Origin: Tribonema minus | Lineage: Eukaryota; Sar; Xanthophyceae; Tribonematales; Tribonemataceae | Assembly: GCA_017506865.1 (NCBI GenBank) | Contig: JAFCMP010000112.1 | Coordinates: forward strand, 1,984,001 to 2,048,000 | DNA: 64,000 nt | Direction: 5' to 3' | In this document: positions 18,601 to 42,600 of the stretch, in pieces | Layout: each line of letters opens with the position of its first letter | How positions within the stretch are numbered: the first letter of the stretch is position 1 | The notes under the pieces: generated by a model | Database searches by the model: none | Told to the model about the DNA's origin: nothing | Seen by the model: only the letters and a program-made list of their open reading frames with translations | Program-made: the position numbers and the translations under genes

Positions 18601-19862
18601 GCATCCAGCTTCGCAGGCGCATCGCCAGCTGGGTGTTTAGCCTGCAGTTTATGCAAGGTAGCGGAGTCGCGGGGGGCAGATGTGTCAGTGCCCTCCGCCA
18701 GCAGCCGCGCGGCGCGCCCGACGCCGCCCGGCTGCCGCGCCGTCGCCGCCGCGCGCTCGCGGACTGCCGCCGCCGCCTCCGTCATGGACCTAGCGCGACG
18801 CGCGCACGCACGGGCGGCGCCACGGCGGCAGAAGGCCAGCGCTGTGCGCGTGAGTAGCTCCAGCTCGCCTGCCGCGAAGGCCGCGAAACGGTGCGCCCGC
18901 GGCAGGGAGCCGTCGGGCACTAGCAGCAGGCACGGCAGCAGATGCAGCAGCTTGCACCATGCACCCGCTGTAGCGGACGCCTGCGCCGCTGCCTCGGCAC
19001 CGTTCGCCTGCGCTACCGCCGTTTGCGCCTCCCGGAGGCCCGCCAGCGTGGCCGTCAAAGCGGCCGTGAAGTCCGAGCGGTGCTCCAGGCGAATGCGGCG
19101 GCCAACCACCAGTTGCTGCTGCAGTACGTAGTCAAAGGAGAGTTCGTCCAGCGCTGCGCGCGCGGGCGAGAGCGGCGCGAGCGTCCAGAGCGGAAGCGCG
19201 CTGCGCCACGTTGGCCCTGCCGCAGCCACCGCGGCAGCTGCGCGGGCGCCGTGGCCCTGCGTGCCGCCACTGGCTGTAGGGAGGGGGAGAATGGGGGGCA
19301 GAGGCGCGACGCCGCGAGGCCCGCGCGGCCGCTGCGTTGTGCTCGCGGGCCGGGATTTGTCGAGGTGCTTGCGCAGGTGCAACTTCGTGAGCACGCACCC
19401 GGGCTCGCCGCACGAGACGCATGCGCAGAGTACCAGCTCAGGTTCCACGGCGCGGTAGGTGCCCTCGCCAGCGCGGTGGAGGGTCAGACACTCGGCGTCA
19501 ATCACCTGCATACGCGTGAGGAAATCTGCAGGCATATCCGGATGCTCGCGGCGCTGGTGATCCGCCAGCGCCGTGGCGATGCGGCGCGCCAGCGCCGGCG
19601 ACGCTGATGTCTGCGCGGTGAGCGTGTGCGCCTCCCCGTTCCTGCGAAGGCGCGGTTTGGGCACTGGCACCCGAAAGAGGCAGCCAGTGTCATGTAAAGG
19701 GCAGCGCGGATAAATGGCAGCCGTTGCAGGCTGAGCGGGCGCCTGCACTGCCTCGGGCTGCGCCGCCGGCGGATCTGTGCCCGCCGCGGCAGCCGCTGCT
19801 GCAGCAGCAGCTGCCGCAAAGGCCGCTGGTGCGGCTCCCCCTGAAGTAGAGTCGAACATCAT
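15690..19862 (-). CDS. LINE ORF2: zinc fingers, reverse transcriptase, CCHC and restriction-like endonuclease region
   Basis: 1390 codons, uninterrupted. An Ala-rich N-terminus (1-50) is followed by two probable zinc fingers (C54, C61, H102, H107; and C151, C156, H162, H166). The reverse transcriptase spans about 450-800. Motif A is LLAIDGSNAFN (D594), motif B is QGVQQGDPLGPLLFALAL (651-668) and motif C is GYLDD (686-690), so the catalytic Asp residues are present. A CCHC knuckle with RHN follows (CPKC...H...C...RHN, 1137-1162), and then a region with ADAV and CIDVTI like the Asp pair of the R2-type nuclease. N-terminal fingers plus a C-terminal nuclease are the plan of R2/NeSL-type elements, many of which insert at specific sites (family knowledge). 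Clade placement needs a tree. Confidence 0.8.
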   Translation of the reverse strand: MMFDSTSGGAAPAAFAAAAAAAAAAAAGTDPPAAQPEAVQAPAQPATAAIYPRCPLHDTGCLFRVPVPKPRLRRNGEAHTLTAQTSASPALARRIATALADHQRREHPDMPADFLTRMQVIDAECLTLHRAGEGTYRAVEPELVLCACVSCGEPGCVLTKLHLRKHLDKSRPASTTQRPRGPRGVAPLPPILPLPTASGGTQGHGARAAAAVAAAGPTWRSALPLWTLAPLSPARAALDELSFDYVLQQQLVVGRRIRLEHRSDFTAALTATLAGLREAQTAVAQANGAEAAAQASATAGAWCKLLHLLPCLLLVPDGSLPRAHRFAAFAAGELELLTRTALAFCRRGAARACARRARSMTEAAAAVRERAAATARQPGGVGRAARLLAEGTDTSAPRDSATLHKLQAKHPAGDAPAKLDAAASRARSSVAAAALAAPAPLNCASFTADGLREAILAANPGSAAGPSGLRNSHLQQCVRHTAHTSGRMVDWLLELLAWLGTTAYSTPATLPAPFWRLHAAARLSAVGEKARPIACGDTIRRLFARTFCTDTRDRVSALLEPIGQFGVGARGGAERVALMAQLTHECGGVLLAIDGSNAFNALSRSAVLTAVAEHLPGLYGYVEHIYGPGRAPWLQFGLDGHADAAIILSQQGVQQGDPLGPLLFALALRGTMVAARAKFPQLALPGYLDDLTIMTPSCDAPVLGHVGRAFCFIQQALSELNIQVNVTKCPALVPASGGARERAAAVFAAADVPVPVCDDGVTLMGVPVGTEDFVRTHVAATLRAPGTDRLVAELVQMEDVQAAFSILRLAVPARAGHVARNTAPSLTHEELRRFDAITLAAVAALAQEPSAGLTPPAHDGAPAAGGDCRSPPAVAAAAAPPSLWAAAVAWVRGADWGGEAPVTLLAHQQVRVHLRLGSGGFGVLGAAPRACAAFAARTLECMGPALAAFPVAARSRVLEHARYGFTFTQIATCLQQLRSGSDDAAAALALLLPSVWYQDWRQDDGAWRALRDLLQRAGGAAGLGMRTRAGARRAAPAAAREPGSAQAPPAAVLPRRQAALSRVLDAALAATQLRRLEAANALEAVAAWRSGASKGAMGFLAQLPSTDPAETMSPPEFRETLRRHLGVERPASAAARCPKCHKTVESGAHLRRCTQGLNVTRHNLLADALFQMLKQVAHLRGLDRDTLAPFRRYAARHGFNKFMDIVFGSNQICLPVPKVQPSADAVAAGRCNQLRGGFEVACCIDVTIRDSSCPSRLRQAQGGARDVQRVLESASQEKIDTYVVSGALDPTTHTLFSAAFDHFGAMSRDTQALLHALAEQSSQGSYNLAQRVAFWRRRASLALQRALTRVVIDNWNAVITPDGDVSAYRRIALLQVPRPSPASAEPPAPP

Positions 19863-19895
19863 TACGATGAATGAGGGGAGCGCCGCACCGGCGGC

Positions 19896-20810
19896 TTACA
19901 GGCCCGAGGCGCCGCCGCCTCCCTCCGGTGCCGGCGGCGGCGCCGTCAAGGTGCAGAGGAAGCGGTCGGCGGCGGACTGACCCTGAGGCAGCCCGCGCGA
20001 AGGGCGTGCAGCGGGGGGTTCCGCCGCCGAGCCCGGCGTGCGCTCAGCAGCCGTGCGCTTGCGGCTGGGGCGGGGTGTGCCACTGTCGGACATAAGCGCG
20101 CTGCTGTCACTGGCAGGCATGGGGGGCTGCCCGCTGCGCGAGGGGGAGGCGCTGCAGCCGCTGCCGTGCCGAGCCGCTGGCGACGATGCGCGCCGACACC
20201 GCGAGCGCCCGCATGAGCAGGAGCGCGGCGGCTGCCGCGGCGCCGCCGCTGCCTCCGGTGCCACCGCGGGGTCTGCTGCCGCACATGCGGCCGCTGCCGC
20301 TGCCGCGCCGGCAGCACCTACAGCAGGCGGCGGCGCGCCCGCCGCCTCCGCCGCGGCGGCGCCCGCCGGCGCCGCGCCCGCCGCCTCCGCCGCGGCGGCG
20401 CCCGCCGCCGCCGCGCCTGCCGCCTCCGCGCCCGCCGCCGCCGTTGCCCCGTCCGCCGCCACTGCGGCCGCCGCGCCAGCCGCTTCAGAGCTAGCCTCAA
20501 GGTCTCCCGCCACGGGCATGGTGGCCACCGCGCCGGCGGCGTCCGCCGCCGGCGCCGCCACGCGCGCAGCGCGCGCCGCTTCCGCTGTCAGCTGCGCCTC
20601 GAGTCGAGCGGTCGCCGCAGCGTTGCGCACCTGCTCTCCTTCGCGCAGGCTCCGTTGCTGCGCCGCCAGCCGTTCCGCACGAACTTGCTCTGCCAGAGAC
20701 CGGTCACAATCGGCCTCAGCAGCCCGCTTTCCCGCCTCGGCGGCTGCCAGCCGTGTTGTCAGTGCCTTGACCTGCTGCTGCAGCCCCTTCCGCGCGGTCC
20801 TCCCCTCCAT
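19896..20810 (-). CDS. LINE ORF1-like protein: coiled coil and Ala/Pro-rich
   Basis: 304 codons from the first Met. Residues 1-75 look like a coiled coil (QQQVKALTTRLAAAEAGKRA, then ARLEAQLTAEAARAARV). A long low-complexity Ala/Gly/Pro part and a basic Ser/Arg-rich tail follow. It stops 33 bp before ORF2, on the same strand and with the same GC-rich composition, which supports its being ORF1 of the element. The frame stays open upstream past 21,150 without another Met, so the true start is unknown. No RNA-binding domain is recognised. Confidence 0.55.
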   Translation of the reverse strand: MEGRTARKGLQQQVKALTTRLAAAEAGKRAAEADCDRSLAEQVRAERLAAQQRSLREGEQVRNAAATARLEAQLTAEAARAARVAAPAADAAGAVATMPVAGDLEASSEAAGAAAAVAADGATAAAGAEAAGAAAAGAAAAEAAGAAPAGAAAAEAAGAPPPAVGAAGAAAAAAACAAADPAVAPEAAAAPRQPPRSCSCGRSRCRRASSPAARHGSGCSASPSRSGQPPMPASDSSALMSDSGTPRPSRKRTAAERTPGSAAEPPAARPSRGLPQGQSAADRFLCTLTAPPPAPEGGGGASGL

Positions 20811-21263
20811 GATGGCCCCCTGCAGCTGCTGAATGCGCTGCTCCTGGCCCAGCTGCGCAGGGTCCGCGTCGGCCGCCGGCGGCGGCGGCGAGGCGCCCGG
20901 CGACGCGCTCGCCTGCGCGGGTGTCGAGGCGGCGGCAGCGTCCGTCGCGGCGGCGCCGGTCGCCGCCGGCGCTGGGGGCTGCGAGGCGGCGGCGCCGGTG
21001 GGCGCACGCTGCGTCGCGGCGGCTGCCGCCGCGGCTGGAGCCGCGGCTACCGCAGGGTCACCGGCCGCTGTGCCAGTGGCGGCAGCTGGCGTGGTGCAGA
21101 TGGCGGGGAGCGTGGTGTGTGCGCGTTGAAGTTGACTATTTCCGGATCTGGAGGGAAAAAAAACCGACTTTTTTTCAGAATCCCGGCACCTTCGCTTGAG
21201 GGACAGCTTTTGCAGGGTCCATCAGCAGCAGCAGATAGCAGTCGAAGCAGCAGCAGCGCGACA

Positions 21264-22460
21264 TGGGGAAGAGCAAGGACTTGACGCCGCGCAAGAAGGC
21301 GGCAATCATCGATAAGCTGGCTCACAAGATGGGTAGTCCAGCCAAAGCGCTTCCACGAGGTGCTTTCAAAGAGTCGCCTTAGAATTTTGCATAGCGAGGA
21401 GGACAGCAATGAGACTTGCAGAAAGGCGGGTACCGTGATCCGTAGCCCTTCTGCAAGGCAGGACACGAGCTCCAAGCGGAAAGGCAAGGCCTCAAACCCA
21501 GCCAGCATCACTGGCGACACCCTAGACCGTGTGCTGGTTGTGTCTGTCGTTGAGCGCACCAGCTACAGGCGGTGGGCACAGATTGCTGGCGTCGCTGAGA
21601 GCTTCCTAAAACGCTGGAGAAAGCAGGTTAAGGCTCGTCGGACGACCAGATACATCAAACCAACGCTGACGGAGCGCCACAAGCTCGCCAGGATGGAGTT
21701 TGCCTACTCCTTCCTCAACAGTCTTCACCACAGACACTTCGCCAACTGCCATTACGACGACATGCTCGACACGGTGCACATCGAAGACAAGTGGTTTTAC
21801 ATATGTGATGACGGTGCCGGCTGCTATCTGCTACCGGATGAGGAGCGCCCAGATGATCCGAAGCTCCAGCACAAGAAGCACATCACTAAGGTGATGTTTC
21901 TGTGCGCAGTTGCCCGACCTCGTGTTCACAGCCACGGTCGGCGTTTTGATGGCAAGATTGGCATGCGGCCCATTGTTGAGCAGGTGCCAGCAGCGCGCAA
22001 GAGCAAAAATAGTGCTGCCGGCACACTCGTCTGCAAGCCTGTCAACGTCACTGCATCAGTCTACGAGCAGGTCATGATCAACAAAGTGCTGCCGGCCATC
22101 AAAGAGAAAATGGGCGACAACACGTGGTGCAGCAGGATGGCGCTGCACCGCACACAGCGGCAGGGGTTGTAAAGCGCATCGAGGCTGCTGCGCTCGGCAA
22201 GATGGCATGAAATTGATAGCGGAGACACAGCCTGCCCAGGCGCCAGATGTCAACTTGTGAGACCTTAGCATTTTCGCTTCATTGCAGTCGCAACAGCAGG
22301 AGGTGTGGACGAAGGATATCAAGAGCCTGATAGCGGCTGTTGAAGGTGTTTGGGCCGCTTATGACTGGCAGACCATTGAGCGGAGCTGGATTACACTCTT
22401 TGGGGTGTACGATAAAATTCTGCAGCACCGGGGGGAAATGACTTTCAGCCACCACACAGC
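21264..22460 (+). mobile_element. Plant-type mariner-like (Tc1/mariner) transposon, decayed
   Basis: The N-terminal part (MGKSKDLTPRKKAAIIDKLA) and a helix-turn-helix-like region lead into the main open frame 21,360-22,172 (270 codons). That frame has VHIEDKWFYI, YLLPDEE, HITKVMFLCAVARPR, FDGKIGMRPIVE and VNVTASVYEQVMINKVLPAI. Further conserved blocks continue downstream in other frames: QQDGAAPH near 22,130, QPAQAPDVN near 22,230 and TIERSWITLFGVYDKIL near 22,375. At least two frameshifts and one stop (TGA after PDVNL) interrupt it. The first catalytic site, usually HIDEKWF, reads HIEDKWF here (GAA GAC), an inverted Asp-Glu pair. Terminal inverted repeats were not found. Confidence 0.8.
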
Positions 22461-26400: not shown

Positions 26401-29400
26401 GACGTGGATGAAGCAGCAGTCGCATAACAGAACCGCGGCAGCACAAAACAGTTGGAGTGGAAGTCGGGGTAGCACTTGATGTACAGGGCGCTAAGATAAC
26501 TTTTCCCTCCATTTTGCGCAAATTCAGACCCACCAGCAGCCGCCGCCGTAACAACAGCAGCACACAAGCCCGAGTATGGCCAGCAGCGACGGCGGCGGCA
26601 GCGGCGTCGATGACTGCGAGGATGTAGCGTCGTAATGAATTAAGGGCGGAGAGGGTAGCCACTGGCGCCACTTCTGCTGAGGGCGATATCATGTCAATCA
26701 TGCCCACAACGGCATCGGGCGCCACAATTGTGTAGTCTTAATTTTTGTTTGGGATGTATCTCTCACTCCTGCTCTTTATCTGGTTGTGTCTGGGTTACTC
26801 AATCTGCAACTTATCCTTCTTCAGTCTTTCGCCAGATGTAGCTAGCCATCAACAGACACCGAGCACATGACACCAGACACCGTGGCTGTCGTCCATGAGA
26901 TATTTAGCACAAACACTTGCTCTTAGACAACTCCGTTTCCACACACTTATAGCAGCAGACAGGAATGCCGGCTGACAGTAACGACGCTGTCGTGCAGAAA
27001 ACAAAAAGTCAAAGGGGACCTGCAGACGACAGGAAATCACAGGGGACCTTCGTGACGGCTGTGTCCAGACGACAGACACTTCAGCGCGCTTATCGCCACA
27101 GTGTTGTGCAGATGACAGGATTTGAAGCGTGAAGTCGCGACAGTCTGTTGACAGGATTTGAAAAAGAAGCTGAAATGCTGTTGACCCGCTCGTTTGGCCG
27201 CGACAGAGCAAGTAGGCATGAGGCAACTTAGCTTGATGGTCAGTGACTTTGGGTCTGACTTAAAAGCCTGTGGTGAGGGTAGTGCTTACGCTGCTGCTGC
27301 TGCTGCTACTGACCTACATAAGCCTCAACATTGAAAGGGTGGGGGGGTGCATGCTGCTGCTGCACCACGCTGTGTGTATGCTATACTCCACCACAGGCTG
27401 TTTCTGCTGCTGCTGCTAGTGCTGCTGCTGCTGCCAGTGCGGCTACCGCTGCTGCGGCCTGCTGCACTGCTGCTGCTTAACACGCTTGCAAAAGGGCCAG
27501 ATTGGTGCACAGCAGCGTGGTGGGCCACTGTTGGCACGGCGCTGCTTCAGCAGCTGCTTGGTTAGTGATGCTGACACCCTTTTGTTGGACGACAGTTCCA
27601 CAACAGGACAGGACAGCAGTTGCACAACAGAAAGTTGCAGCCAGCTTGTTGCGACATAGTTGTGCAGATGACAGGAGGATTCTGCTGACCAGGCGACGCC
27701 GTCGTGCAGATGACAGCAATCTTCAGGGGACAATCGCGACCCTGTCGCCTCAGGAGGATTCGGAGACCCCCTGTGAAACTGTCATGTCGCCTAAGCTGTG
27801 CACAAGTGTATTGCGTGGGCTGAGAGAGACGAAGGGGGCTGCTTTCGCTAGCCTACTTTCGCTGCGTCATGTGCTGCTGCTGCTGCTAGTGCTGCTGCTG
27901 CTGCCAGTGCGGCTACCGCTGCTGCGGCCTGCTGCACTGCTGCTGCTTAACACGCTTGCAAAAGGGCCAGATTGGTGCACAGCAGCGTGGTGGGCCACTG
28001 TTGGCACGGTGCTGCTTCAGCAGCTGCTTGGTTAGTGATGCTGACACCCTTTTGTTGGACGACAGTTCCACAACAGGACAGGACAGCAGTTGCACAACAG
28101 AAAGTTGCAGCCAGCTTGTTGCGACATAGTTGTGCAGATGACAGGAGGATTCTGCTGACCAGGCGACGCCGTCGTGCAGATGACAGCAATCTTCAGGGGA
28201 CAATCGCGACCCTGTCGCCTCAGGAGGATTCGGAGACCCCCTGTGAAACTGTCATGTCGCCTAAGCTGTGCACAAGTGTATTGCGTGGGCTGAGGGAGAC
28301 GAAGGGGGCTGCTTTCGCTAGCCTACTTTCGCTGCGTCATGTACAGCATAGCTGCAGTGCTTCCTCACAGCAAGCGATGTCAAGCACTGCTGTTCTGTTA
28401 TGTTTCTTTTCAAAACTGACCGGTTTTCGCCGACATTGTTGCTGATTCTCAGACCGATACTGGACCCGAGCTTCGAATGTTCAACGTCTGACAGAGATGC
28501 ACCTACCGATTTAGCATCAACTTCACCGTGGTGCTTCCCTACCATGTAAGCGGTTGCTACCTGTACAGGCAATAGCATAGCTGCGTGTGGCGCCGGCCAA
28601 AATGCCCCTACAACAGCAGTAGCACCAGCGGAGCCAGCGTTGCTGCAACTAACCACCGGCAGCTCTGCATGCCGCCCAGCCAGGTTTCATTGTTAACTAC
28701 CGCGTTCCCGTTGCAGCAGGAGTGAAAGCAGCAGCACTGCATTGTAGCATTCAAGACTCGTACCAACACACTGAGGCGTTGCGACAAGTTGAAGGATAAG
28801 CATCATTCTAGTTGTGGTGACTGGGTGGTGTCCCAGCTCACAGTGTTGACTCTTCAGGAGTGAGGAACTGCTCCATTGCTCCAGTTACAGCCTAAAGCCT
28901 GCGAATGTTGCCTTGAGAAAGCAGCGGCGCTTGCAACTACTCTCTCCAGATACCAAGTGCCATGGCGCCGGTAAACGTGGCGGTGCAAAAGCAGACAAAA
29001 GCCTTCCTTAAAGCATGTAGATCGGTTTCTGATCATTAGGCGAACACAAGCACAAATGCAGCTGAGCGCTGCTGCCATTCAACTTGAGGTGACTGTTGAC
29101 AAATACGGGCACAACTCTCCAATTGAGCCCTGGCCACCTCAAGGCGTGCTACGTGCTGCCAACACACATCTATCATCCTAATGCACGCTAATGGCGGCCG
29201 CTTCACGACATACGCCCCCATCCATGACGTCATCGACCGTCTGGATCAAATAACAGTGAAGCGTGCAAGGAGCTACTGCAAGCCCGGCCTACCGCAAATA
29301 AGCCATGCAAATCCTCAGCAGATACAGCACGCCTGGCACCACTTTACTGCGCGCCAAGTGTTGTCGATGCGATTGCAACACCTGATTGCGCATCACAAGC

Positions 29401-32400
29401 AGATACTACCCCTCTAGGCGGCGGCTGCGGCTACACGGTGGCGGCGACACCGGCAGCGGCAGAGCAGCACCATATGTTGACGTCATGGTACTGAAATAAC
29501 AGAGGGGAGTACTGCCAGTGTGTGGCTATATGCCTCTAATGCTGCACCCGTCAAAGAGGCTGCACCACTTGCATACGCCCCGGTAATTGCCTACACTAGC
29601 AAACAAACGCACAACTTGCGATGCAAACCAGCACTCCACACTACTGCGCCCCCGCTTGAGGCACTCACGCAACCCCCACACTACTGTGCTCCCGCTTGAG
29701 GCACTCGCGCAACCCCCCACTACACCCCGTGTCATGCACGCCCTGTTATAGGGATATAACCCCTCCCCAACCCCTAAAAAGTCACCATAACGTAGGCGGT
29801 GCCTTAAGGTGCGCGCTGGTAGACGCGACTATGCACCTGCTGGAGAAAACGATACACCTGGCGCCTACTCTCCCCGCGTTTCCTTGAACGTTACAGGAAA
29901 GAGGCTGGAAGTTCGGCTGCGGTCAGTCTCATGGCATACGGCCCGAGTTCCCGCGCGCTACCAACCAGGCTGACGACCCATCCCCCCATGACGCCCCCCC
30001 CCCCAGTCGGCGGCTACGATGGCCACGTCCCCTGTTCCAAGCCGTAGCAGTGCTCAGCAACGTGAGGAGCACCGCACACTCCGCGCGGCGCAGCAGCTCG
30101 CATGCGCGCCCGTCCTGACTCCCGCAGTACGCCCCCAAGCGCTTGGCACTGCTCAGCAACTTGCTTTGCACGACGTAGCTAGGCCATACTATGCAACGCT
30201 AGTCCGCCCAGGCCCGTTAAGTTGACAGCGCTCAGCAGCTCGCATGAGTGCGTCCCAAATAGCTTAATCCCCAATCCGCCTCCGGGCCTGGGGCAGCGCT
30301 CAGCGACTGATTGAGGCTGCCCTTGCCTTGGCAGTGCTCAGCAACTCGCTGGAGCACGCACTGCGCCGTGTGGTAACTCACTCACACTTGCGCTAGGCCA
30401 ATAGCTGAAGTTGAAGCGCCCTTGCTGAAGTTGAGCTGGTGGTTGAAGTTGAAAGGTGCTTCGCTTGAAAATCTCGTCACCGGTAGATGCGCATGTAGAA
30501 CGCCCGCCGCTGCGCGCCAAGACGGAGTTGAATATCTCGTCACCGGTAGATGCGCATGTAGAACGCCCGCCGCTGCGCGCCAAGACTCCGTCTTCACCTC
30601 ATATGACACTCCTCCTGAAACATGCGGCACGCAAGGCGCGGGGTAGGGAACGCTGCCAAACAACAAGACTTGGATATTTCTAATTGACATATACTATGGT
30701 ATTGCAGAACCGAACCGCTGGTGCTGTTGCAAGGGGCTGCCAGAAACTGCCAGTGCGCTCGCCAAGGAACGGTGACGAATGATGCAGTGTATAGATGAGA
30801 CGTGCCAGATGCTTGTCGCCTTTAGTCGCATGACCTTTATAGCGGTTTGCAAATGAGGGCAGCTGAGCCGTCAACTCATCCGGCTCTGCTGCATCAATCG
30901 GGCATATGAATTCCACCGTGCCATTGGAAGCAATGTGTACCACATAGCCATCACAACTATCATCAGAGCCATCTACCCATGCAGCCAATGAAACTCTTAT
31001 GATGTCACCTTTAGCATATGGGCATTTTTCACGTGGTGCTGGTGCTGCAGCCGCTGATGGCCTGTCAGCCGGGTCACGGGGCACATGCTGTTGATCACGC
31101 GTAGGCAAGTGTACATCTGGTGGAGGCGGCACCGCTACTTCAAGTTGTCGCTCAGTAGCCAGCTTCAGCCTACTACAGTGGATGTACTTCAACATGACTT
31201 GCCCTGCATGCGTCGCCCGCAAAACATATGTGTCTAGCCCAGGTATTCGCCTTTCTACTACAAATGGACCCAACCAGCGTTCTGCTTTCAATTTCTTACT
31301 CAGCCCCTTACGAACGGGCGGATAGTGTACAAGAACATGATCTCCAGGTTCAAAGCGACGAGCAAACCCTTTCTCCTGCGCTGCCGCCGCCCGTAGCCTC
31401 TCCTCCTGCTCTTGTAGTGACACCTGTACCAGCCTGTGTCCTTCCTTGATGAGCTCATGAATTACGTGCAGGTGCTCAGCTGCTGACTTCCACCTGCGCG
31501 ACAGCTCAGGTGCACGAAGATCTCCCAACATTGCCTCGAACGGCAGCAGGGGCTCACGCCCATATAACATGCGAAACGGTGACATGCCATACGTCGTGTT
31601 TGTGCAAGCTCTGTGGTTGAAAAGAGCCATGGGTAAGACTGAGTCCCAATTCTTCTGATTGTCTTCTACCATCATTGCCAGAAGGTTGACAAGCGTGCCG
31701 TTGGTGCGCTCAGTGAGACCATTGCATGCAGGGTGGTAAGGGGATGTGAAGCGCTGCTCAATGCCCACTAACCTAGTTAGCTCTTTCATCAGCAACCCCC
31801 TGAACTCCTTAGCATTGTCACAGAGGAACATTTGAGGGCACCCGTGCCTTGGTATGATCTCACTGACTATGACACGCGCAACAGTGACTGCTGATTTGTC
31901 AGGTATCGCAAAGGCCTCCGGCCACCTAGTCAGGTAATCCGTGAAGACCAAAATGAAAGTGTTGCCCCTGGCAGTCTTGGGCAGCGGTCCCACAATATCG
32001 AAGCCTACCAATTGAAACGCATGCTGTAGATCTACATCTCCAAATCCATGCACACGCACACGCATATCGCGCTTGGACTTGCGCTTTTGGCATGCCAGGC
32101 AAGTCAGCACCCACTTGAAAACATCAGAATACATGCCAGGCCAGAAGTACCTGCGCCTCACTTTGTCATATGTGCGAGCAAAGCCACTGTGACCTCCACC
32201 AATCGCACCATCATGACATTCCTCAAACACGCGCTCTCTTAGTGACTTCGGTACCACTAGCAAGTCTGTGCCTGTCTTGTGGGACCTGCCACCAGCAGCA
32301 AAATGCATTCTCCCATTGCGCATGTAGTAGCCAGCGCGCTCAAATGCGCGAGCATCCTCAACTTCTCTAGGTGAGAGGCCATGTGGGGGACCACCTGCTC

Positions 32401-35400
32401 TTAGACTAGTAGTCAAGTACTTCGCTACTTTCCCCAATACCGCATCCTTGCTCAGCGAAGATACCAAGTCGCCCGCTTCAAACACGGCGCGATGTCGTTG
32501 CCTATTACCATCTACTTTGCCACCTGTATCCTTGTTGTTGATGTCTTCATGGCCATCCTCCAATTCAGCCTCAAGGTCCATGTTCTCGTCGCCATCTTCT
32601 GGGAACAGCTGAGCCACCCTGCTTGCTGTGATGTTGATTGACACTATCTTCACTCCAGCTGCATCGTCACATTCACAAGCGGCAGGCAAAACAACAGACG
32701 AAAAATTTCCCGGAACAGGTGCTGGCCGCTGTATCCCCCCATGCTGCGAGGTCGTCGCTGCATCATTAGAAAAGGCCACACCTGCAGACACTGTGACGAA
32801 AGTGCCATCCCTGATACGCGAGAGGGCGTCAGCATTACCATTCTCTCTACCAGGCCTGTGCACAATGTCCATGTTGTATTCTTGCAGTTCTGATATGTAA
32901 CGTTCCTGCCGCTTGGTGCGCGGTTCTGAGCCACCCATCAAGTGCGCTAATGCAGAGTGGTCAGTTTGTAGGATGAACGTGTTACCATTGTGCAAAAACT
33001 GTCTGAAGTAGTGAACTCCTTCCATTGCTGCTAGCGCTTCCCTATCATAAGTACCATAATTGCGTTCAGCACTTTTCAAAGTACGACTATAGTATCCTAT
33101 CGGGTGCTCTCCGTTGGTGGGGCATATCTGCGTTAACACCGCTCCCAGTCCATAGTCAGAAGCATCAGTCTGCAAAACCAACTTGACTGAGCCATTGAGG
33201 ATGCCTTTCAAATCGGGATGTGCTAAAACAGGGGATGTCTTCAAGGCCTCCTTGAGCACCTGCCACGCAGCAATGCAATCATCCGAGAGCTCAAACGGTA
33301 CACCTTTGCGAGTAAGGTTGACCAGGGGCTCCGTGATTGTTGAAAAATGGGAGATATACTGCCTGTAGTACGCTGCCATACACAAAAAGGAACGCACATC
33401 ATGAAGGTCAGAGGGCAAAGGTATCTTCTCAATTGCCTCTACTTTTGATGGATCAACGCGCTTGCCCTGGGCATCTACGACATGACCCAGAAATTTGACC
33501 TCCCGCATGGCGAAGTGACACTTGGACGGCTTCAGCTTTATGCCTACTGAGAGCAGTCGGCTCAACACTATCTCCAAGTGCTTCATGTGCTCTTTGAAGG
33601 TTTTGCTAAAAACCAGAATATCGTCAATGTACACCAGGGCGTACACCCACAGCGCATCATGCCCCATAGCAAGCTGCATTAGACGCTGAAAAGTAGATGG
33701 CATGTTCATAAGCCCCATAGGTCCCACCTTCCATTGATAGCACCCCCATTTGGTTTGAAAAGCCGTTATTGGTCTGGATTCTCTGTCCAATTCAACATGC
33801 CAAAATCCAGCAACCGCGTCCATAGAGCTAAACCACTCAGAGCCATTCAACACTGAGTGCACCTCATCTATGCGCGGCAGCGGAAACCCATCCTGACCGC
33901 CACCACGCTCTTTCACTGCTTGATTAACCGCCCTCAAATCCTGCACAACTCTCATACCACCGTCTGGCTTTGGTATTATCATGAGAGGAGAGTTCCAGGG
34001 TGAATTTGACGGCTCAATCACGCCCTTCTTCAACAAGAAGTCAATTTCCTTCCATAAAACTTCAAGTTCTTTCAGACTATACTTTCGCAATCTGGAACGC
34101 ACAGGCCTAGCATCTCCAACATCAATATGGTGGCGGACCAACGACACTTTTCCTGGCCTACCATCATGTGAGAAGATCCCCTTACGTGCCATTTTGCGAA
34201 GCAAATCTGTCAACTGCATTCGTTGAACTTCCGTCAAGTGTTCCAATTCCCCAACACGGAACGCGGCAAGCCATTCCAGCTCCCGTGCCCGTTGCACTGC
34301 TTCATCGTCCGTACACTCTTGAGCTGCAGATGAGTCAGCACCAACACCAGGTTGCGATTCTACATCAACCTTCGCTTCCTTTTTTGGTTTATTGTGAGTT
34401 TCAGGGACGGCAGTGCAAGGAGCATTTGGCGGCGGCGGTTCTGCGGGGGGCCGCGCCTTGTGCACTATCTTGTCTGCGTGGGGCTCCTCTACACTCAATG
34501 TTTGCACTCGTGAATCAGAGACTGGGTTTAACTTAGCCGAATTGACTTTGTCTGCCATGCTGCTAGTTGAAGTAGTTGACGTTGAAGAAGGGTCAACCTG
34601 TGCTCCACACCCCCAACCTACGTCGCAGCTCTCAGCAAACAGAGCCTCCGCTGCCGTTCCCGAAATGACATTTGGCGCCTCCGCTTGCGCCTCAGCTGGT
34701 GTCACATAACCAGCAGCAACCATGAAGCAAACCGTGGCTAGACGATCATTGCGCTCTATCTGTGCTATCCTCGCTTTGATCGCCGTCAAGCGCTTTTCTA
34801 GCAACTGCTGTTTCTCGTCTTTCTCCTGTACTGAAGTCAGTGCTATTAAGCTCCGTGTGGTTTCCACTTCACATCTGTGTGATTGTCGCTTCCACAAATC
34901 CTCATCTAGCAAGTGCAAGTGCCCAAGCTTGACGCCCGGTTTCAGCTTACCGGTACGCTTGACAATAGTGAGATTTATAGTGCTGGTGTGCATACCCTCC
35001 TCTACCAACACTCGCTGCCGCCGCACAGCCCAATGCCCCCGTGGGTCAATTGCCCCTTCGAGCACATAGTTCCCCGGTGGTGCGTCACCGGTCCAAGTCA
35101 CCACAACTGCAATTCCATCCGCTGTAGCTTCTGTGACGGGGTACTTCTTGGCTATATAGACAGTAGCTTGTTTTTGCAAAGCAGCCCCTTGCTCTGCAAC
35201 CAACACAATGTTGTCCCATCCTGGTAGTTCTGTTTCGGCGGCAGCGGCCAACTCAGGGTTGTCTGACACTTGATTCTTGCCAAAGCGCTCATCTGCATGG
35301 TCCATCGCTATGGTGTATGCTTCCATCATTGTCAGCTTACCTGGCGTGCGCGCCCCGCCGCTACGATGGCCATCCTCGTCATCACCTCCGGCTTCGCCGC

Positions 35401-38400
35401 TGTCGGTGCTTGTCTCGTCACCTTCGCTCGTGGAGTTGCTGGCTGATGCTTGCGCGCTGGTCTCGCAGGCGGTCTTCTTGGCGTGGTCTGCTGTGGAGGG
35501 CTGCGGCCCTGGCTCCCGGTTGTGGTTCGCCGCCCCCATCGCGAAGCCCTGCTTGTACTTCAACTTGCGCAGGAAAGGCATGCCTTGCAGGTGTTGTGAT
35601 ACGAGGACAGGCCCCACCGAGGTGCCTCCCTGTGGGTGGTCGTCAGGGAGGTCATAGGGACCCAAGGTCTGCACAAACAAACCATCCTCGATCATGCGAG
35701 GCGGTATGGGTGCCTGCTGGCGCTGCAAGTCGAACAGCACCGGCTCTGTACGCAGAGTGCGAATGATGAATGACATCACTGGGGCAAGCAGTATCTGACC
35801 ACTGCCCTTCGCCAGTGTTGACTGTGTGATGCCTGGTGGCACCTTGAGCCACCACAGACCATTGGCCCGCAGTAAGTCTGCCTGCGATGGAGCATAGCGT
35901 TGAGTGGCATTGTACTGCGTGTCCCCCTTTCGCATGTCACTGTCTGATGGTTCACGGAATGCATGAAAGTGACGCGCAACAAGGGTTGGTACACTGCGCG
36001 TCATCTCATGCGTCCAGCGCGCTGTGGCATTGCGAGGTGGCAGCACAAACACTGGGTTAGTGACACCCCACATCTCCATGGGGGTGATCTGCAGTTCGTG
36101 CTTGTCCTTATGCTTTGCGCGCTCCACCTTGTGAGCCACGCGCTGGAGCGCGTCCACCACACTCTGATCACCCTTCATCATGAGGAGGAACACTCGGTTG
36201 CGCAGGTTAGGGAACCCCAGGTTTTCACCCGAGAGCTCAAATGACAATATGTGATAACCTGCGTTGAGCGCTGCCTCCAACGCGAGAACTCCACTGACAG
36301 TCAGCCCCAGCTCTGGCGCATTTTCAATTAAGAGTCGCTTCACTCCCTGCTGTACAGCCTTGTGCACCAGCTGTGGTGTGGTGCTTGCGGTCACCAGATC
36401 TGGGTCCAGCTCGACTATCTTGTCCCACACTTCATCAGAGGTGTAGTCCCCTATAAGCGTAGGAACCGTGGGGTGAGATGCACGAAAAACTTTGGCGAAG
36501 TCTTCACTGGTCTCTACTGCCATTGCCACTTGTGCTCCCCCCATTATTGCACCCATTACGGAGCTGCCAATCCCCCCCCCAGGTCTACCACCTTTAGGTT
36601 AGGTACCAGCATTTGCTCTACGTTTGGGTACTCACCATGTTCAACTGCCGAGATCTGAGACCAGCGATCGACATGGCAATTCTCCAGCACCCAGTCTGAC
36701 CCCCCCTTTTTGTTGTAGCAGCCCAAGCGCCTGTTCTCAGTGAGCTCTGAGGCAGCTACACAAATCTCTGTCTCACTGTCTGAGGGGTAGTCTGCTTCTG
36801 AATCAGAAGTCAAGTCTGTGTCATCATCATCACTTTCCGACCAGTCAGTTGCTTGCACATAGTCATCCACCAACTCTGCGCTGCTTGCATCGGAATCAGA
36901 GTACACTGACTCTACTTCAACAGTCTTGTCAGTGCGCCAACACGGACATGACACGTCAGTCTCCCAGCCTGTTTTCGGCAGTGCTTCCACGCTCACAACA
37001 CGCTCATCCTGCTCATTGTCAAGGTCAATGGGTGGTTGTACTTGTACTTTCTCCGCACCTACTCCTGTTCCAAGCACAAACTTTGGCCCCGGCTCTCCAT
37101 CCTGTGTGAGTGGCGCGTCGAGCAAATCTGCAGGCAGTGCTCCAAACTCAACTTCAACGTGTCAGGCGCCGACGCTGACCCGTCAGACCCCCATTGCAAA
37201 GCAGTGTGCAGTGCTGTCTGAGGGCCACTACCACCTCCTTTGATGCCCCCAGCGCCTTGGCGCCACGAATCACGCATCGTAGCTACTTCATCCGGGCTTA
37301 GGGACTTGACCCCCTTTGTAGGCATGTCGGGGTGCTGCACTATGGCAGGAGTGCGGCTAGTGAGGATGTCCAAGCGCATCTTGCTGATTGTAGTGAAGCT
37401 GATTAGGAATTGGGGGTCAATTTGGTTGCTGACGTGAAAATCAACTTGTTCCGTGACCCCTGCAACTTCAACTTCAACCGTGACCATGAACATCACTGCG
37501 ACCAAGTGCCTGCCCACGCCGCGTATTGCCTTGAAGATTGGTGGTCGCTGCGATTGCTCAAGACGTAGTGCCTGCTGAGCAGTGTCCGCATTGTCGCGCA
37601 GCTTACGCAACAGCAGACAGTATGCGCGGAACTGCATCACGTTGCACCCAGCACATGAGTCCAGGTACACGATGGCGGGCATGATTCTGTGGACCGTTGC
37701 CTGCACCATGAGCACTGTTGAGCGTGGCCTAGGGCCGTTCACATCGCCAGCACCTGTAATGCAGATCATGCAGCTTACTTCGGCAATGTCATCACCTGGG
37801 CCTAGGCAACAGCACTGAGAGAATTGCTGAGGGTCGCACGTCAGACACACACCTCCAATGGACGGGTCCTGCGCGAAGAATGCTCCCGCTGAGAAGGGGT
37901 AACAGGCGTCGTCATCGTTGCTAGTGTAGTGCACTGTTGGTGGCAAGGCGGAAGCACCGTACATCATGGCTAGCGCGGCCTGCATCATCGCGGGAGACAC
38001 AGAAGCGGGGTCAAACGCAAAGTTGTTTGCAATACGTCCACCGCTGCCGCCATTGCCCATGTAACCGCCACTTGGCCTCTGCCCCTGGCCACTACCGCTG
38101 TTGTTGCCACCAAAGCCTCCGCGACCGTACCCCCCCCCAAAGCCTGACCTGTTGGACTGCGCTTGCCCGTATGGCCCGTAAAATGGCCGATTGGGCGCCA
38201 GAGCAGGTTGTGAGGTGCGTTCATATAGGCGCACCAGTGTATCCAAACGTTGATTGATGTCACTGGCCTGCTGCTGTTGGTGCATTTCAAGGCGCTGCAA
38301 GGCACTTTCCAACGATATACCTGAGCTGTTCGATGGCGTAGGAGTTGTCAACGTGGCGCCGCTGCTGCCCTGAATGGCCAGAGCATCAGCCCCCATGGCG

Positions 38401-39661
38401 CCGTCACTACCGTTTCCCGCCTCCGACTCTGATCCTTCCTCAAGCGCAAAAGCGAGAGAGCTCTTCTTGTCTGACTTCTTACCTGCCTCATTCGCCAGAT
38501 ATGCTCTCACTGACATGCCCTTGCTTGCTGCCATTACACTCTCTACCGTGTGTAACCGTCTTTTGATAGCCTCTGTTGACACCTCACAGGCCTCACCTGC
38601 CTCAAGTGTCACACGGAATGCCACCAACTTTTCCATGAACTTCTCTGCTCTGGGTCTGGCCTCACGAGATCTGCCTATGACTTCAATGAGCTTGCGCACA
38701 TATTTGTCCTTGAGAAGCGCTCCGCCGCGTTCCTGCGGATGCAATGTGTACTCCAGGACCTTCTCAAAGTCCAACAGAAACACTTTGACACCTACCCCTG
38801 CCTCCAGGCGCAGCTGCTCCAGCCTGCTTGCGGCCCTACTTCTCTGCATAGAGTCACTGTACAGGTCTGTCAATCGTGTATGCAGGGCCTTGACCTGCTG
38901 TCCAGACAGATTGCTGTTGGCCTGCTTCTCACTGATCCATTTCGTGATTTCCCTTCGCAGCTCAGCAGAGAGGCAATATTGCAGCATTAGTGGCACGTAT
39001 GAGGGGCAAGTGCGGTTACTAGAGTTGCCGTCGGGTATTCGTTGGACCCCTTCGAATGACACACGTGCCGCCAGCGAGTTGAGCCATTCGCTCATCATGC
39101 ATGTAATCAGCTCATGGTTGACTGCCTTGTTCTCCGCATTCTTGTACTCCAAACCAGTCTCTGGGGGGTCATCCAAGAAGTATAGCGTTGCATGTGACAC
39201 GCCTTTGAGAGCCCGCGGTGCCATCAGGCGAGGAATCACTGCAGATGACTCATCTTCCTCGTCTACACTGCGCACAACTGCCCTGCTAGAGTGAGACCCA
39301 ACTTCAACTCTTGTTTCTTGCGCTGACTGTTCCATTGGGACTGCCAGCTGCGACTGCTGCGGCACCTCGGATGGGCGCTGCTGGTGCCCCTGCTCAACCT
39401 GATGCTGTAGCTGCTGTTGCTGCAACATCACCTGCTGTTCAAGACGGTGCAACTGCTGCTGCTGCAACTGCAACTGCTGCTGCAACTGCAACTCCTGCTG
39501 TTGCTCAACTTGACGTTGCTGCAACTGCAGCCGCTGCTGTTCTTCCTCTTCTCGTTGTGACAGCTGCTGCTGCTGCTGCAACAACTGCTGCTGCTGCTGT
39601 TCCTCCTGCTGCTGCTGCTGCAACAACTGCTGCTGCTGCTGCCACTGCTGCTGCAACAGCA

Positions 39662-39693
<32 letters not shown>

Positions 39694-42600
39694 AGCAACT
39701 GCTGTGCCTCTTCTTGCTGCTGCTGTAACTGGGCCAGATCCGCCCCCCGCGGATTGCCCTCCACGTAGCGAGGCACTGCGGCACGACCTAACGCATTCTC
39801 ATGCAAAGTGTGCGGCACAAACCTCCCGGTCACAACATCCACCGGGACCTGAAAGTCCAGAGGTGGTGGAGGAGCATCGAGCCCCACCATCTGCCCTTTG
39901 CTGAGCGGCAGATAGTCAGAGAGCAGTGGGCCTGCATCCTTGCCCCAAATGAGAGGGTTGACTGGTGGGTGCGAAGGCGTCACGGGCATAATCCAGTAAG
40001 GTGTCGTGCAGTTTGCGACGCGCGAGGCAGGCACATCATACACTACATCCCCAGCCTCCGTCCTGACGCGAAAGAGCGGGTCGAACACATTGGCCTCATC
40101 TACCTCTGTGTTAGTGCTCAAGAAGTCTTGTGCCATCCTACAATCCTCCCACTGAGTGGTGATCTTGCAGCGTACCGGGGCGTTGACAGGCATGATGCAA
40201 GGGGTTAGTCGATGAGCCGCCACTTGACAGACCTCTGCACTCACAACTTTCCTGACCACAACATAATCCATCAGCGCGTGAGCCCTGCTGAAGCGGCCCA
40301 TCGGCTGGCACCAGGCTGGCGCCACCTGCACCAGATGCACCTTATCCAACTTGCCTGCCTTGCCTTTAACAGTTGGTGCATGCATGTCATGCCATAATGC
40401 CAATTCGTAACCCGAGGGTCGCCAAACTGAGTAGTTCTTCTCCGCTCCCTCCAGCAGCTTTACTTCCCACTCCTCACCCAGCGTCTCGTCATCCGCATGC
40501 AGACGTGTTGCATACACTTCGCCATCACGCTTCGCAACCACACCCATACGGCCTACGAGTTTGTCATTTCTTCCAAACCACACTACGACCAGCTCACCAG
40601 AGTGTGGTACTTCTCCTTCGAACAATGCACGTCGCTCGTTGATTGTCCACAGGCTTTCACGACGGGCATGTGAGTACTGCAAGTGAGCTGCCAAATAGCC
40701 TGCAGGGTATTCGTACCAAGCCGTTGTTATGGCTCTACGAGCAACCTGATGTATGCCTGCTGTCAGGGGCTCCCCTTCACGGTACACTGAACGCCCTTTC
40801 AACGGTGCAGCATCCACCAAAGCCTCTGCCCGTGCCAGGCGAGCAGAATTGATTGAAGTGGTTATAGAGCCAGCAATTGAACCTGTTCGTCGCTGACCTC
40901 GAACAATCGACTGCAACCCTCCTTCGCTCTCCAAACCACTCTGTGCACTGTGTACTGACATGATTAACTTCCGAGTCAAGCTTCTTCTCCCTCGATACAG
41001 ACCCGAAATATGGTTAGCCAGACACAGAGCTTGCCAACTTGAATGTCAGTTCTCCAACTTCACAAACAAGAATAGGTTATCTCTCTTTGACACCCCCTTC
41101 CTTTGTCTCCTATGCTTGCCAAGCCTTGCCTGATTAGCGCTGTGTATTCCCCCCCAGCACCGACGTACAGTGAAGGTGATGAAAGCAAACAGCGCACACC
41201 GACGAAGTGAACCGCAAGCGTCAAAGTTCCCCTTTTGCAGTTTCTCCTCAAAATTCCTCCCGCGATAGGCAACGATAGTGCAGGGGCTACGAATCGTGTG
41301 AACAGCAGCAAAGCCGTCGCCACACCTCCAGCCCGAGACAGTATCGCTACCGACTACGCCAGAATATCTTTACCCGTCCCCAACTTGAAGCACGCAATCA
41401 CCTTTTTTTGACTACAACCCAACACTACCGCCTCCAAACAGCCACGAATGTAGCAGTATTCAGCAACTCACTACTGCTGCAGCCTTCGTTCGCAAGGCGA
41501 AGCAACAATGTCACCTGGTACAGGCCCAAAAACTCCGCTGAAAATGCCGAGCGTGAAAGCCGCCGAAGCAGCTCGCCGCAAGCCACGCCAGTGGAGTCCG
41601 TGTCCAGTCGCCAGCAGCGCCACGCCGCAGATGACCGGCAGGCTGCACGCTATCTCGATCTTGCTCTCGAACCGTCAATTGCCCGCAGCTACCTCAACCT
41701 TCAGAAAAGGTGGGCAGCTGCAAGCTCTCGTGGCCCTCCGCTACCGCCGAACCTCGTTGAGGACGCGGGCGTCTGGCAGCTAACTATAGTCGGCTAAAAC
41801 CTGCCGAGATCAGCCATTGTGGTGACTGGGTGGTGTCCCAGCTCACAGTGTTGACTCTTCAGGAGTGAGGAACTGCTCCATTGCTCCAGTTACAGCCTAA
41901 AGCCTGCGAATGTTGCCTTGAGAAAGCAGCGGCGCTTGCAACTACTCTCTCCAGATACCAAGTGCCATGGCGCCGGTAAACGTGGCGGTGCAAAAGCAGA
42001 CAAAAGCCTTCCTTAAAGCATGTAGATCGGTTTCTGATCATTAGGCGAACACAAGCACAAATGCAGCTGAGCGCTGCTGCCATTCAACTTGAGGTGACTG
42101 TTGACAAATACGGGCACAACTCTCCAATTGAGCCCTGGCCACCTCAAGGCGTGCTACGTGCTGCCAACACACATCTATCATCCTAATGCACGCTAATGGC
42201 GGCCGCTTCACGACATAGTAGTATCTGCCTAGCAGGTTGTTCGGCTTGATGTGAATCAAAACTGCATTGCGGTTGCTGTCGCAGGCAACTTGATGCGACA
42301 AAAAAGTCGGGGGACAATACGCTCCCTGCTTGGCACAACCATAAGGGCTGCCAAGCGGCTGTAATGAAAGCCCTGCTGCGGCACATGCTACTCACATACA
42401 GCCTCCGTCTCCCATGCCATTGCCTGAGTAGTGCACAAAGCCTGAATGCCCTCCGTTTGTATAATTCAAGGCCACACATTTAGCGACATGACCTGTGATT
42501 AGGGTTCGAGGCCTAAACGCCTTCGTTTCCTAAGCTGTCAGGGCTATCAAGAGGTGACTTTTGACCATAATCCTGCATCTAACCTTCAAAGGTGGTAAGT

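Follow-up and report, generated by a model that had tools for sequence, protein, structure and literature searches.

DNA methyltransferases (DNMTs) carried by retrotransposons were described by de Mendoza et al. (2018; PMC5890265); that paper places them in long interspersed nuclear elements (LINEs) and DIRS elements in Symbiodinium and in Gypsy elements in Klebsormidium, with the key residues conserved. For the capture of DNMTs by retrotransposons, the prevailing explanation is that new copies methylate themselves. In the present work, we analyse a Ty3/gypsy retrotransposon, a member of a family that we call F1, which carries a cytosine-5 (C5) methyltransferase-like domain without its catalytic loop and lies in a 64,000-nucleotide stretch of contig JAFCMP010000112.1 (the window, in which all positions are given). 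Its precedent is KnitGypsy-Dnmt3 of Klebsormidium nitens, which according to the same paper is likewise a Gypsy long terminal repeat (LTR) retrotransposon with a C5-methyltransferase in the Pol polyprotein, is present in multiple copies and has its domain under purifying selection (Ka/Ks < 0.2 there), as also seems to hold here. KnitGypsy-Dnmt3 is of the Dnmt3 type, has conserved key residues, is found in fewer copies than the Symbiodinium elements and resides in a charophyte (PMC5890265), whereas the DNMTs here are not Dnmt3-like by profile, occupy at least 336 DNMT-like loci in many families of a probable red-lineage alga and, in F1, are without the catalytic loop. SymbioDIRS-Dnmt3 and SymbioLINE-Dnmt resemble the present case in that hundreds of retrotransposon-carried DNMTs occur in an alga, although not all of the loci counted here are demonstrated to be element-borne; they differ in being DIRS and LINE rather than Gypsy elements, in having conserved key residues and, for the DIRS type, in having demonstrated activity (same paper).

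An initial annotation of the window, made from its letters, named a charophyte Gypsy and a dinoflagellate Copia element as known captures. The former agrees with the primary paper; the latter does not, as that paper has LINE and DIRS elements in the dinoflagellate (PMC5890265), and 'Copia' occurs only in a passing remark in a later paper, which cites earlier reports of DNMT3 in 'LTR Copia and DIRS' elements (PMC12344493). According to one sentence in PMC6338049, Gypsy and DIRS elements that encode methylases have been found in stramenopiles, red algae, green algae and charophytes, and PMC12477816 describes a methyltransferase of another kind (N4C or N6A) in a Sola DNA transposon of Ectocarpus. 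In the accessible parts of PMC12344493, PMC9998398, PMC6338049, PMC5963040, PMC12477816 and PMC3145265, a C5-DNMT on a Gypsy element is mentioned for no named haptophyte or ochrophyte, and a loop-less one not at all, and no report of a retrotransposon DNMT lacking the catalytic loop was found in the open-licence PMC literature. We regard F1 as a new variant with the Klebsormidium Gypsy-Dnmt3 as its precedent; it would probably extend to another eukaryotic lineage what the primary paper describes from dinoflagellates and charophytes.

A C5-methyltransferase homologue in a Ty3/gypsy polyprotein

The element occupies 28,813–42,215 on the minus strand. The matching LTRs and TAGT duplications reported in the initial annotation are both present: the LTR pair (398 bp, TG...CA) is identical in sequence and TAGT is found on both flanks, in keeping with the paired TG...CA LTRs and short target duplication of Ty3/gypsy elements. 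The 1,958-residue pol frame (30,680–36,556, minus strand) matches RVT_1 (1e-32), RT_RNaseH (1.1e-28), Integrase_H2C2 (9e-23) and rve (3e-10) in Pfam, and the order of reverse transcriptase (RT), RNase H and integrase is that of Ty3/gypsy. These pol domains, together with homology to sister families, confirm the principal claim of that annotation: a Gypsy element with a C5-methyltransferase-like domain between a protease-like region and the RT.

The domain comprises the N-terminal ∼290 residues of the F1 pol frame. PF00145, the Pfam DNA_methylase profile by which the initial annotation had proposed to check it, gives no match in the window frame at E ≤ 1 and none in the unbroken frame of another F1 copy (L016) at E ≤ 0.01. 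F1 fails the curated cut-off of 22 bits, whereas the open reading frames (ORFs) of the sister families F2 and F3 pass it with 32.5 and 44.8 bits, respectively (F1, F2, F3, G and the other family letters are labels of this analysis). F1 is 66.8–68.0% identical to F3 and F2 over 280–281 codons spanning motifs I–X, and a profile of families K, L and M, run against 123 proteins, matches the window frame at 4.3e-8. The homology thus comes through the sisters and the K+L+M profile rather than through PF00145 itself and, judged from sequence, is clear. Motifs I, II, VI and VIII and an X-like motif occur in order, as the initial annotation had it apart from the qualification of motif X; motif IV is missing from its list, and from F1 itself owing to the deletion of the loop. 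We take the names and functions of the numbered methyltransferase motifs to be as generally understood. Sister families above the PF00145 cut-off conserve the domain, and on this ground a chance match to the motifs was rejected.

The profiles of F+G, H+J and K+L+M match one another with hhalign probabilities of 98.4–99.6%. In profile searches, the best solved match of each is DNMT2 (9hgm and 1g55), at 9e-11 for F+G, 4e-8 for H+J and 4e-11 for K+L+M. Searches of the protein database with the F1 and H DNMT regions returned no homologue at E ≤ 0.001, and a search of viral contigs found no relative of the RT.

Loss of the motif IV loop

Alignment of F1 with F2 and F3 reveals 25 residues (75 nt) missing in frame between AST and TPQLV, and the deleted stretch is the motif IV loop with the catalytic cysteine. 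The deletion is present in all 23 F1 copies that were read, the window included; the other four of the 27 full-length F1 rows have the same length of 855 nt, and a more diverged copy on contig C25 also carries it. C5 methylation is known to depend on the cysteine of motif IV. As the loop and cysteine are deleted in every copy checked, F1 should not manage the known C5-methylation chemistry, and its domain is presumably without methylation activity. Self-methylation by the F1 element, the role suggested in the initial annotation, is thus unlikely.

Across the 16 family representatives aligned at motif IV, PPC is found in 11 (G, H, J, K, N, O, Q, R, S, T and U); the exceptions are L (APC), M (SSC), F2 and F3 (TRC) and F1 (none). 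The 16 amount to fewer than 16 independent families because O and U are near-identical, and representatives Q–U are single stretches of ∼1 kb. Related Gypsy families in one genome form a natural series that leads from PPC by way of APC, SSC and TRC to a domain in which the whole loop is gone.

The same domain is found upstream of the RT in P0004, a distant relative among environmental proteins (source ENA) that shares 70% identity with the pol query across the 55% of it aligned by BLAST (hmmsearch 1.6e-14 in the 123-protein set; hhalign 96.9%). Its motif IV is without PC, and motifs I and VI are degenerate. As P0004 does not have the exact state of F1, catalysis was probably lost separately in the two. 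Among the 123 proteins the F+G profile matched only P0004 and the window's own P0001 and P0003. A DNMT-like region that appeared plausible by eye in P0019 was not borne out by hhalign, and the N-terminal pieces of six other relatives (P0043, P0065, P0066, P0086, P0098 and P0105) gave no DNMT match by the same method.

Copy number and position of the domain

The genome searched comprises 158 Mb in 554 contigs. A 285-residue F1 query gave 27 full-length matches at 98–100%, the window included, one of them with a stop codon; as these lie on many contigs, a private insertion or an assembly artefact is rejected. The sister families F2 and F3 show ∼62–69% identity in the longer matches, with the alignment breaking at motif IV. 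In total, at least 336 distinct DNMT-like loci were found on 207 contigs, 240 of them of at least 800 nt. They were merged from match lists of which 75 of 122, 79 of 100, 107 of 114, 72 of 113 and 15 of 123 rows were entered, the rows left out being short neighbouring fragments and rows present in another list; the number is a lower bound because the searches score the best candidates only. It includes four loci (L001–L004) that are not demonstrated to be element-borne, of which L004 looks to be the DNMT2 of the host.

The DNMT and RT lie in one frame in seven of the nine families run on Pfam (F2, F3, H, J, K, L and M); in F2 and F3 the RT, RNase H and integrase share the frame of the PF00145 domain. 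In F1 the DNMT-like domain and RT also share a frame, with PF00145 not reached, and in G the two frames that were run carry PF00145 without an RT, which lies downstream. A DNMT match on the same strand within 9 kb upstream of an RT match was found for 28 of 31 F1-like, 32 of 39 F2/F3-like and six of eight G-like RT matches, so the domain is family-wide, as the initial annotation required of a genuine capture. The corresponding figures are 17 of 48 for RT matches at 38–40% and four of 22 at 36–37%, low at least in part because the count preceded the scoring of many DNMTs. This count used 148 of 150 RT rows, two fragments being omitted; 23 of the 123 PF00145 genome matches have one of the 148 downstream. 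An upstream DNMT match is missing for three F1-like and seven F2/F3-like RT matches; one of the former, C515:1218, has only 1.2 kb of contig before it.

Over 9.5 kb, six mismatches and two single-base gaps separate the window copy from that on C214 (L017); for the copy on C511 (L016) the figures are 19 and two. As the window LTRs are identical, F1 is probably a recently active family. The window reading frame is broken at two places, and longer open frames of 3,452–3,455 residues are found in other F1 copies (four rows). One break is a homopolymer run inside motif I, which other copies read through; owing to it, the DNMT-like domain starts slightly upstream of the 30,680–36,556 frame, at ∼36,600, in another frame. 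The run (∼36,572–36,580) has the window's length in 12 of the 23 F1 copies and a different length in 11, a variation that may stem from errors in the assembly or from slippage during reverse transcription, or may mark a site of recoding.

A 6.2-kb element (L037; C4:530,220–536,440) has the same LTRs and a related 564-residue ORF and carries neither pol nor DNMT; as the two are missing together, it is an ordinary non-autonomous derivative. An LTR spacing of ∼5.7–5.8 kb on C33, C112 and C130 suggests further copies of this kind, which are perhaps mobilized in trans by F1.

Affiliation of the captured methyltransferases

No DNMT3 chain is found among the 45 solved-structure matches of the F+G profile at E ≤ 1; its closest solved relatives are DNMT2 and M.HhaI, and M.HhaI scores just behind DNMT2 for two of the three profile groups (F+G and K+L+M). 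Family N (L007; C550:122,236) has a PPC-type DNMT that is nearest to DNMT1 among solved structures (4e-7), from which it follows that the element DNMTs differ in type. An RT tree, into which 17 of 120 listed proteins were taken, has three well supported groups, made up of K+L+M, of H+J and of F+G together with environmental relatives. In H and J the protease comes first and the DNMT second, whereas K and L have the opposite order. In the DNMT trees all element DNMTs fall on one side (93/94 with P0004, the branch of which is very long, and 90/90 without it; not starred), and the DNMT2 sequences of host and human form a group of their own (100/99) outside them. The tree placement proposed in the initial annotation was obtained with respect to host DNMT2, in trees with few references (six other sequences, no Dnmt3 among them). 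There may have been a single capture followed by rearrangement, or two or three captures.

Three further loci (L001–L003, on C223 and C181) are short C5-methyltransferase ORFs of 367–390 residues that are unlike the element DNMTs. L002 is nearest to M.HhaI among solved structures (1e-13), and L001 groups with it in the tree; the three loci possibly derive from integrated viruses.

Selective constraint and interpretation

We slightly favour the reading that the F1 domain, a genuine C5-methyltransferase homologue embedded in the Gag-Pol polyprotein of a Ty3/gypsy family, has become a pseudo-methyltransferase and is kept by selection for a non-catalytic role. The in-frame deletion of 25 residues would have removed its catalytic loop before F1 multiplied, and what remained would have been retained for a job that needs no catalysis. 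Binding would be the most likely function of such a domain, be it to nucleic acid or to a partner, either within the virus-like particle or when the element integrates. Alternatively, it may recruit an active DNMT of the host or of a related element in the manner of DNMT3L, which supports DNMT3A. The likeness is to a DNMT homologue that lacks the catalytic motif and works through a partner; DNMT3L is a mammalian host gene outside any polyprotein, and recruitment by F1 is conjectural. The family that carries the loop-less form has 27 full-length matches, and the LTRs of its window copy are identical; should transposition still require this domain, its benefit would lie in something other than methylation.

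Over motifs I–X the ratio of nonsynonymous to synonymous rates (dN/dS) of the DNMT domain is 0.169 for F1–F3, 0.176 for F1–F2 and 0.241 for F2–F3, and F1 is thus not faster than its sisters; these values, and those for the RT (0.032 and 0.039 where computable) and integrase (0.016–0.062), are rough because dS is high (1.3–1.6 for the DNMT domain and 1.4 to saturated for the RT). For the time after the deletion, differences between F1 and the C25 copy were polarized by F2/F3, leaving out six that were unpolarized. On the F1 side there are seven synonymous and five nonsynonymous changes, and on the C25 side two and eight, respectively. With a neutral expectation of 70–75% nonsynonymous changes, the probability of five or fewer in 12 is 0.014–0.037. 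Constraint on the F1 domain since the deletion is suggested by this, though not strongly.

The main rival is that the F1 domain lost its function recently, hitchhikes in an otherwise selected polyprotein and will decay. We consider this unlikely, although several results weigh against the favoured reading or in favour of this rival. The F1 copies are nearly identical and the window LTRs fully so, and little time may thus have passed and the loop deletion may be recent; the post-deletion test rests on 12 substitutions. Fisher's test of the F1 side against the C25 side gives P = 0.10, and the closer copies C544a and C544b each leave two synonymous changes and one nonsynonymous change on the F1 side. 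The RT and integrase are far more constrained than the DNMT domain, on the rough figures above. The conserved proline of motif IV is already gone in F2 and F3 (TRC), and for P0019, a member of the same RT clade, hhalign detects no DNMT in either of two pieces compared (1.0% and 0.5%), so this clade can do without one. The F1 piece alone reaches DNMT2 among solved structures at E = 0.16 only, behind an unrelated chain at 0.02, and two AlphaFold runs (pLDDT 36.4 and 37.0) give no structural support for retention of the fold. A passive remnant is harder to reconcile with an F1 branch no faster than its sisters, with post-deletion changes that lean synonymous and with the P0004 domain, which is still recognisable although its PC motif is lost.

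The two explanations that keep a catalytic or RNA-directed past in view fare less well for F1. A DNMT2-like ancestor may have bound or modified the primer tRNA or the genomic RNA, with binding alone left in F1. DNMT2 is the best solved match of all three profile groups and motif VIII (PN.R.R) is like that of DNMT2, itself a tRNA methyltransferase with an intact PPC; but M.HhaI follows closely for two groups, family N is nearest to DNMT1, DNMT2 stands outside the element DNMTs in the trees and no primer tRNA was found by a single pattern search. That negative means little, since the pattern held a base that the related L037 lacks at the site. We regard this origin as improbable. More improbable still is active self-methylation by the F1 element, of its cDNA or of its copies, a role put forward for the elements of Symbiodinium and Klebsormidium. 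SymbioDIRS-Dnmt3 has been shown to carry out de novo CG methylation (PMC5890265), PPC is kept in 11 of the 16 representatives sampled in this genome and CpG depletion in most of the window (0.62–0.72) fits host CpG methylation; against this, all checked F1 copies are without the catalytic cysteine and loop and F1 has no PF00145 match. Self-methylation may instead hold for the PPC-type relatives, to judge from their motifs.

Beyond F1, the captured DNMT could have been domesticated as a structural or regulatory subunit of the polyprotein, with the catalytic centre discarded at least twice (in F1 and in the lineage of P0004) and the domain still selected, in a genome that has hundreds of DNMT-like loci and in which the catalytic motif persists in most families sampled. 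We advance this broader view tentatively, at somewhat less than even chances; if it is true, the lasting benefit of DNMT capture would be binding or recruitment and not methylation.

Element structure, host and neighbouring features

The features of the element are collected in Table 1. A Pfam search with the 1,306-residue ORF 1 gave no match at E ≤ 1. As to the D[ST]G pattern of the protease, F1 and F2 read DSCAG (at ∼37,640 in the window), F3 has no pattern match and the window has no Pfam match; at the corresponding place P0019 reads DTGAS. To judge from this motif the protease of the element could, like its DNMT domain, be atypical or inactive. Genome-wide, 43 LTR matches are listed.

Table 1. 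Positions of the element features in the window.
Feature	Position	Strand	Basis
5' LTR, 398 bp, TG...CA	41818..42215	-	Same sequence as the other LTR over 398 bp
3' LTR	28813..29210	-	Same sequence as the 5' LTR over 398 bp
Target-site duplication TAGT, left	28809..28812	.	Read directly
Target-site duplication TAGT, right	42216..42219	.	Read directly
Putative primer-binding site, adjoins 5' LTR	41800..41816	-	
ORF 1, 1,306 residues: gag-like region, poly-Gln stretch, protease-like YLDSCAG near end	37059..40979	-	
Acidic linker ORF, ends within motif I; frame of the window copy breaks here	36556..37125	-	
DNMT-like domain, motifs I, II, VI, VIII, X-like	35690..36600	-	
Site of missing 25-residue motif IV catalytic loop (AST/TPQLV)	36379..36380	-	F2/F3 alignment; 23 of 23 F1 copies read
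Motif VI remnant ENA (sisters: ENV)	36317..36325	-	
Motif VIII-like PNLRNR	36194..36211	-	
Reverse transcriptase	33479..33976	-	PF00078, 1e-32
RNase H	32876..33184	-	PF17917, 1.1e-28
Integrase zinc-binding and core domains	31730..32254	-	PF17921, PF00665

The initial annotation took the host for a chlorophyte, which it probably is not. Names of the ACPI/CAC/FCP type point, we presume, to chlorophyll a/c algae. The genome has 92 chlorophyll-binding matches, and two such fragments compared with solved structures are nearest to ACPI/CAC/FCP-type chains, after the multi-repeat LHCI chains of 9vfj. RbcS has no match in the genome, with one control giving a signal, and rbcL is represented by two fragments with stops. 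PF02972 (cryptophyte phycoerythrin alpha) also has no match in the genome, but no control gave a signal either. Our guess is that the host is a haptophyte or an ochrophyte. CpG is depleted across most of the window, with an excess of TpG/CpA, which is compatible with host CpG methylation without being proof of it; the value in a GC-rich island is 1.08.

Adjoining the element, an identical direct repeat of at least 300 bp with a spacing of 470 bp is found at 27,404–28,173. The GC-rich island covers 6 kb (15,690–22,172) and has 69–72% G+C against a background of 48–56%. It contains a 1,390-residue ORF that matches RVT_1 (5.6e-8) as well as further overlapping ORFs, and is probably a second retroelement or foreign DNA.

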